A DNA stretch of 64,000 nt from Paludibacter sp. (GTDB taxonomy: Bacteria > Bacteroidota > Bacteroidia > Bacteroidales > Paludibacteraceae). A model generated the notes under the pieces. The model worked only from the letters and a program-made list of their open reading frames with translations, was not told the origin of the DNA and did no database searches. The stretch is from assembly GCA_019163375.1 (NCBI GenBank), contig JAFLKK010000008.1:124001-188000 (forward strand). The letters run 5' to 3'. Made by a program: the position numbers and the translations under genes. Positions 7,239-12,936 of the stretch are shown piece by piece (positions within the stretch are counted from its first letter, which is position 1; each line of letters begins with the position of its first letter).

Positions 7239-7446
7239 AGTGCCGGCGTTAACAAAAAAGTACTACATAAAAGTTTTTTTCAAAGACAATTGGTAGAAGG
7301 GTGAAAAGGTGGAATTATGTAACGGAGTAAGAGTGTAGAGGTGTAAGAGTGTAAAGGTGTAATTCCGAAGGTAAAGTATTAATCTGTGGAAATCAGTTTA
7401 ATCAGTGAACAATAAATAGTTGGAAAGGTGTAAGAGGGTGTATTTA

Positions 7447-7476
7447 GCCTCGTAGAGGCGACAATATGGTAGAAAA
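7447..7476 (+). repeat. GTA-loop hairpin repeat, copy A
   Basis: GCCTC-GTA-GAGGC followed by GACAATATGGTAGAAAA. Confidence 0.75.
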
Positions 7477-7496
7477 GAAATCACAGAACATCCCGA

Positions 7497-7527
7497 GCAC
7501 CGTAGGTGCGACATTACATACAAAAAA
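7497..7527 (+). repeat. GTA-loop hairpin repeat, copy B
   Basis: GCACC-GTA-GGTGC followed by GACATTACATACAAAA. The stem differs from copy A but still pairs. Confidence 0.7.
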
Positions 7528-7751
7528 AGATGTTAGATATAAACCACAAATGACGCGAATGATACGAATTATAAAAACACACTATCTTAAATTCGTACAA
7601 TTAGGGAAATTCGTTGTTTAAATTTAGATCAGGGGAACCATCTGTGGAAATCCGAATAATCTGTGGACAATGAAAGAAGGTGAAATTGGTGTCAGAGTGT
7701 AATGGTGTAATGGTGTAAATTGGGGGCAAAAACCATCAGCGGGAGATAATA

Positions 7752-7822
7752 GCTCAGTGTAACACGGTGTTATTTTAGTTTCACAGTGTTACACAGTGAT
7801 TACTCAGTGTGACACGGTGTTC
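7752..7822. repeat. Dispersed repeat, cagtgtaacac(g/a)gtg family, copy 2
   Basis: gctcagtgtaacacggtgttattttagtttcacagtgttacacagtgattactcagtgtgacacggtg; direct-orientation match to 5752-5855. Confidence 0.8.
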
Positions 7823-7925
7823 CCCATCTGTGCATATCACCCGACAGGCCGACTATAGCGGCCGTTCGGTTGAAATAATAGCTTAGTGAATCTCTGTTAT
7901 CTTAGTGACTTAGTGGTGAAATTTA

Positions 7926-7956
7926 GCCTCATAGAGGCGGCAGCATGGTAGAAAAA
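7926..7956 (+). repeat. GTA-loop hairpin repeat, copy C (ATA loop)
   Basis: GCCTC-ATA-GAGGC followed by GGCAGCATGGTAGAAAAAA. Confidence 0.7.
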
Positions 7957-8022
7957 AAAAGAGACCCTGCACACAAGCAAGATCCCTTTAATTATGAATT
8001 GTGAATTATAAATTATGAATTA

Positions 8023-8067
8023 CTTGTACTGAGCGTAGTCGAACTTGTACTGAGCGTAGTCGAAGTA
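8023..8067 (+). repeat. Dispersed ctgagcg(t/a)agtcgaa repeat, double unit
   Basis: cttgtactgagcgtagtcgaacttgtactgagcgtagtcgaagta; near-identical copy at 12152-12196 and inverted at 9195-9250. Confidence 0.85.
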
Positions 8068-12744: not shown

Positions 12745-12893
12745 GATAACAATTTGAATGATGGGATAATGTATTGATGTGATGATGTGGTAATATAATA
12801 ATGTGGTAATATGATAATGGGAGAATTAAGAAATTAAAAGATTAGAAATGAATGACATTATGGTAACAACACAATCATAACACATACAAATAA

Positions 12894-12936
12894 AATGCCG
12901 TAGGGATGACATTATGGTAGAATGACATTATGGTAA
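12894..12936 (+). repeat. GTA-loop hairpin repeat, copy D (imperfect stem), with duplicated tail
   Basis: ATGCC-GTA-GGGAT, GACATTATGGTAGAA, then TGACATTATGGTAAA. Another tail-only copy at 12851-12866. Confidence 0.6.

Follow-up and report, generated by a model that had tools for sequence, protein, structure and literature searches.

Dispersed two-hairpin repeats in a Paludibacter genome as probable REP/REPIN-like elements of a TnpA_Y1 subclass 1.2 transposase

Hairpins and tails in the Paludibacter window

The window that we analyzed, a 64-kb stretch of a Paludibacter genome (C3:124001-188000), contains four short hairpins, A to D (Table 1). Hairpins A, B and C have perfect 5-bp stems closed by 3-nt loops, with stem sequences as described in an earlier note on this DNA, and each has a DNA fold energy of about -3.2 to -3.5 kcal/mol (z -2.8 to -3.6). 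Hairpin D, which begins one position later than the 12894 given in that note, forms four of its five pairs and is essentially unstable (about -0.1 kcal/mol). The same note proposed that every hairpin is followed by a common tail, GACATTATGGTAGAAAA. This holds for A, C and D, which carry the tail with one, three and two mismatches, respectively, but B has its first 7 nt only (GACATTA), followed by CATAC. At up to three mismatches the tail occurs four times in the window compared to 0.43 expected, a number that none of 100 shuffled sequences reached. We also confirmed that it is duplicated by itself near 12851-12936, with two extra tails.

Although A and B had been listed as separate copies, we found that they belong to one composite unit with a start-to-start spacing of 50 bp, in which a first hairpin (HPa) is followed by a 9-nt linker, GTAG, a spacer and a second hairpin (HPb). 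The other copies are decayed. Copy C is an HPa with a decayed HPb, and D sits in the HPb place behind a tail whose HPa hairpin is lost, which explains the apparently solitary tail at 12854. A and B form a single covariance model match (7447-7517, 71.9 bits), a score obtained by construction as the A+B row was in the training set. Model R1 matched copy C at 7926-7995 (36.7 bits, E 6.4e-6) and the arm containing D at 12841-12915 (35.3 bits, E 1.2e-5). There is no tnpA gene close to copies A-D, and a literature search for the tail sequence returned unrelated matches only.

Table 1. Hairpins, tails and spacer of the repeat in the 64-kb window
Feature	Position	Strand	Basis
Copy A, first hairpin HPa, GCCTC-GTA-GAGGC	7447..7459	+	sequence; DNA fold -3.2 kcal/mol, z -3.6
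Tail of HPa, GACAATATGGTAG (9-nt linker, then GTAG)	7460..7472	+	recurrent 9-nt GTAG spacing near tnpA genes
Spacer from HPa tail to HPb, 24 nt	7473..7496	+	start-to-start 50-51 commonest in relatives
Copy B, second hairpin HPb, GCACC-GTA-GGTGC	7497..7509	+	DNA fold -3.5 kcal/mol
HPb short tail GACATTAC, without GTAG	7510..7517	+	relatives' HPb tails conserved for ~8 nt only
Copy C, HPa GCCTC-ATA-GAGGC (7926-7938) with tail GGCAGCATGGTAG; HPb decayed	7926..7951	+	model R1 match
Tail GACATTATGGTAA, HPa hairpin of its arm lost	12854..12866	+	tail scan; model R1 match
Copy D hairpin ATGCC-GTA-GGGAT, 4/5 pairs, HPb position	12895..12907	+	sequence, model, fold
Copy D tail GACATTATGGTAG	12908..12920	+	tail scan
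Further duplicated tail GACATTATGGTAA	12924..12936	+	sequence

Other repeats were observed in the window. ACTTGTACTGAGCGTAGTCGA is present as an exact tandem duplicate at 8022-8063, and its core has five genomic occurrences at up to two mismatches, of which four are on contig C3, inside the window or close to it. A degenerate 8-bp-phased repeat of the GGTGTAAGAGTGTAA type occupies 7292-7363 and 7688-7719, and the stretch near 12770-12830, before copy D, resembles a repeat of this type.

Two-hairpin arms at TnpA_Y1 subclass 1.2 genes

In relatives, similar sequences occur as arrays with a 52-bp period adjoining an ORF that starts with MANxYTQ. This ORF encodes a Y1/HUH transposase of ~150 amino acids (Pfam Y1_Tnp; NCBIfam IS200/IS605) with profile matches to the TnpA structures of ISDra2 (E 7e-10) and IS608 (E 6e-7). 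It contains the DHVH or DHIH, WQ and Y---Q--HH motifs, the last of which is the signature of TnpA_Y1 subclass 1.2, a subclass entered as REP = "no" by Quentin et al. 2018 (PMC6006769). The HUH histidines, WQ and Y---Q--HH are conserved in 79 of 79 aligned locus proteins. The REP-type tyrosine transposase suspected in the earlier note was therefore right in kind (Y1) and wrong in family, as the enzyme is an IS200-like subclass 1.2 protein and not a canonical RAYT. The 4.66-Mb genome that contains the window has a single subclass 1.2 gene, at C2:646895, whose product has 153 amino acids with DHIH and YISNQENHH. A second Y1 transposase in this genome (L011, C1:218832) is RAYT-type (NF047646) and is without these hairpins nearby.

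We assessed the association of hairpins with tnpA using 80 loci from GTDB genomes, 79 of which entered the counts of units and arms, and 51 matched distal stretches. In an unsupervised scan for 5-bp-stem hairpins up to 800 bp from the gene, the commonest triloops near the 80 genes were GTA/TAC (99 + 67 in 119 kb vs 11 + 10 in 370 kb of distal sequence), followed by GAA/TTC; the tetraloop GTTA/TAAC was enriched too. Of 973 GTAG words near tnpA genes, 103 were preceded by a hairpin at a distance of exactly 9 nt. Distal sequence showed no enrichment of this offset. The next hairpin followed ~25 nt downstream of GTAG. Defining a unit as a hairpin with any 3-4 nt loop and RTA after 9 nt, and a complete arm as a unit plus a second hairpin 44-58 bp on, we found a unit at 73/79 tnpA loci compared to 4/51 distal controls, and a complete arm at 63/79 compared to 0/51 (a detectable unit was absent at 6/79 loci). 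A separate order-wide sample gave a unit at 12/16 subclass 1.2 genes outside the window's genome (13/17 when its own gene is included); among eight genes sorted as other Y1 types, a unit was present only at L220, itself 1.2-like with a degenerate HH.

The geometry of these arms is fixed. HPa, with a 5-bp stem of free sequence and a 3-4 nt loop, is followed by a 9-nt linker, GTAG, ~25 nt and HPb, and the commonest start-to-start spacing of 50-51 in relatives includes that of A and B. HPa tails are conserved through GTAG and HPb tails for only ~8 nt, ending before GTAG; at the 5' foot of the hairpin only an A is conserved, with GTAG or ATAG located 9 nt 3' of the hairpin. On both flanks of the gene the hairpins are oriented inward, the first within ~5-25 nt of the gene and the second at 55-75 nt, such that HPb lies ~5-25 nt ahead of the tnpA start codon and directly past the stop. 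Two arms placed back to back make a four-hairpin cassette of ~145 bp.

The differences between the stems of A-C had been taken as compensatory change, a claim that became strong once many loci were compared. Since selection by pairing had to be avoided, we picked sites by tail score alone, leaving out one locus at a time, and observed perfect pairing with a 3-nt loop at 63/102 sites, compared to 9.4 (maximum 18) for shuffled arms. Pairing with a loop of 3 or 4 was found at 91/109 sites at a tail-score cut-off of 8 and at 82/93 at a cut-off of 10; the distal controls gave 1/27 at a cut-off of 8. Some stems are unpaired. The covariation test over many copies that the earlier note had called for gave the same answer. 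In an alignment of 66 rows, one of them (D) mis-aligned, 91.7% of cells were paired compared to 66.4% after shuffling, with a covariation score of 0.725 (shuffled: 0.241) that fell to at most 0.16 when the partner column was slid by 1-3. Cells changed on both sides of the stem numbered 87 vs 22.6 in shuffled alignments, although kinship inflates such counts. The freedom of the stem is visible even inside one arm, when A is compared with B.

Loops and tails, on the other hand, are typical of clades, with GAA accompanied by ATTATAG, GTA by ATGGTAG, and GTTA by TTGGTAG or TGGGTAG. Mutual information indicates that loop and tail change together, following the tree, and loop type requires 11 changes on the TnpA tree compared to 23.8 when shuffled (0/200 shuffles as low). 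As stems are free and loops and tails are clade-typical, we infer that the stem acts like a scaffold and the loop and tail like recognized letters.

Dispersed copies and other explanations for them

The genome-wide search suggested in the earlier note recovers few other copies when tail-based patterns are used, but a covariance model of the two-hairpin arm, trained on a set that included A+B, identified 22 arms in the window's own genome (E<=5). Most of these form back-to-back four-hairpin cassettes. At the tnpA locus, arms are present on both sides, with GGTGC-GTA-GCACC hairpins and tails ending ATTTGTAG. We observed six further divergent arm pairs (C1:75143, C1:442304, C2:260002, C3:40143, C3:356917 and C7:215987), and one divergent pair forms a long hairpin when folded (z -9.8). 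The HPb triloops at C1:75277, C2:646584, C3:356902 and C3:357047 (L234-L237) contain a palindromic insert of 23 bp, TGGTACATTCCGRCTTRACGGAA. We considered whether this insert is a foreign REP and rejected this, as it has just four occurrences genome-wide, always inside an HPb of this family. One of the four is at the tnpA locus, and its presence both there and in distant HPbs argues that copies have been exchanged between these sites, by movement or gene conversion. The tail type of the window copies (ATGGTAG) does not match that at the genome's only subclass 1.2 gene (TTTGTAG), so the window copies are probably orphan relics of a lost or foreign enzyme.

Some cassettes have clearly spread by another enzyme, as passengers in unrelated miniature transposons. 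In genome G024, a miniature transposon with ends ATTGTTGTCCG and target duplications of 9-10 bp encloses ~30 cassettes (L165-L190), and in the window's own genome the cassette at C3:40143-40309 (L006/L124) is similarly enclosed, with target duplication ATTACCCAAT. The enclosing element is ~235-245 bp long in both genomes and has terminal repeats ATTGTTGTCCGATAAA; in G014 and G033, cassettes are enclosed by a second family of outer repeats, CTTGACTTTTTATAATGTC. Given these terminal repeats and target duplications, many copies were spread by a transposase other than TnpA. A joined-flank search returned no clean empty site, as the species of the genus are too divergent and the ancestral site is occupied by different DNA. 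The same observations would fit a view in which all of the hairpins are the interior of DDE-type MITEs, spread by those transposases and functionally unlinked to TnpA. We consider this improbable, since it leaves unexplained the excess of complete arms at tnpA loci over distal controls, the loop types that track the TnpA tree and the inward layout around the gene, and since there is no flanking inverted repeat around A-C.

Hairpins kept by covariation could also work at the transcript level, serving for instance as an autoregulatory site or as a processing or terminator hairpin of the tnpA mRNA, and the positions of HPb before the start codon and just past the stop would suit such a role. The earlier note had allowed for selection on either folded DNA or RNA. 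We found no sign of RNA function: the window has zero matches to Rfam covariance models at gathering score, the hairpins lack a following T-run, and back-to-back cassettes lie at dispersed sites. Furthermore, the hairpins downstream of the gene are inverted, so an RNA would have TAC loops in place of GTA and no GTAG tail. As the inverted, inward-facing arrangement at both flanks of the gene favors DNA over RNA, we regard an RNA element as very unlikely.

Comparison with known Y1 systems and a proposed mechanism

We therefore propose, with a probability of roughly 0.78, that A-D represent scattered and in part decayed copies of a REP/REPIN-like repeat of TnpA_Y1 subclass 1.2, on the basis of gene association, fixed geometry, stem covariation, the distribution of loop types along the tree and the dispersed copies in the same genome. 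Like the REP/REPIN (BIME) repeats of TnpA_REP (RAYT) systems, or REPtrons, the repeats are short palindromes with inverted pairs and several kinds of stem, cluster around a single-copy Y1 gene and are mostly intergenic. Both the flanking Y1 gene of canonical REPs and the dispersed inverted palindrome pairs of REPINs have counterparts here, in the units at tnpA loci and the six divergent arm pairs, respectively. We conclude that the system consists of REP/REPIN-like repeats of an orphan subclass, 1.2, that differ from canonical REPs in the position of the tag (GTAG 9 nt 3' of the hairpin instead of GT[AG]G at its 5' foot), in arms with two hairpins 50 bp apart, and in an enzyme of class 1 (Y---Q--HH) instead of class 2.

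The enzyme agrees with the published description of subclass 1.2 (PMC6006769) in its length of ~150 amino acids, DH[VI]H, WQ and Y---Q--HH motifs, conserved C-terminal extension, low copy number and occurrence in Bacteroidota, but that listing has REP as absent and here almost every gene has hairpin arms. We found no later paper that uses the subclass name, in a literature search that excluded preprints and most subscription papers. The REPs of subclasses 2.6 and 3, reported there to have "atypical secondary structures", are likewise hairpins without a GTAG foot near Y1 genes, found manually; they belong to other transposase subclasses, and we compared them by description only. IS200/IS605 elements such as IS608 and ISDra2 share the HUH/Y1 enzyme, subterminal hairpins and short tetranucleotides at fixed distances, and NCBIfam names the protein an IS200/IS605 transposase, but ordinary insertion sequences of this kind, or the decayed ends of one, are a highly unlikely source of the repeats, given a single gene copy in the genome and no mobile copies, where several near-identical copies moving with both ends would be typical, terminal hairpins that are inverted rather than on the same strand, and dispersed arms without the gene that far outnumber genes.

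By analogy with characterized enzymes, the subclass 1.2 TnpA may cleave or move the arms. IS608 TnpA binds subterminal single-stranded DNA hairpins and cuts at tetranucleotides chosen by guides 5' of the hairpin (PMC5934647), and TnpA_REP cuts near REP hairpins using the GTAG tag (PMC8266576). A TnpA dimer would similarly bind the single-stranded hairpin through its shape, loop and tail, and the tyrosine would cut in or beside the tail and then rejoin the ends. A natural boundary for the cut would lie between ..ATTAT, where conservation of HPb ends, and GGTAG, where HPa continues. Arms would thereby be copied or moved and arrays lengthened with a ~50-bp period. We looked for a 5'-foot guide in the hairpin copies and found none, so target choice must differ from that of IS608 or use the 3' tail. 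A more tentative possibility is that this is a third kind of Y1 single-strand system, intermediate between IS200/IS605 and REPtrons. What moves would then be a module of ~50 nt with one hairpin, extending from each GTAG to the following one, the GTAG 3' of HPa would also be the 5' cleavage site of HPb, and the enzyme would multiply modules into arrays and cassettes.

In many Bacteroidota and related bacteria, the subclass 1.2 gene is bracketed by the two-hairpin repeat. This widespread class of orphan HUH transposases thus gains a candidate DNA substrate, and as its geometry is defined, binding and cleavage are testable at once. REP-like repeats would accordingly have emerged alongside an IS200-like enzyme of class 1 as well, carrying their tag on the opposite side of the hairpin; this is relevant to the co-evolution of domesticated single-strand transposases and their repeats.

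Subclass 1.2 genes are also present in MAGs labelled Ignavibacteriales, Chlorobiota, Anaerolineales, Phycisphaerae and Brocadia. Among plasmids only two encode a relative, and among phage records none does. At one locus (L071, JAUZOL010000178.1) the tnpA frame is disrupted and hairpins are still around it. At another (L026, G035:C308), tnpA is accompanied by an array unit identical to copy A and is flanked by a putative partial Cas12a and a putative Cas4-like ORF, both judged by eye.
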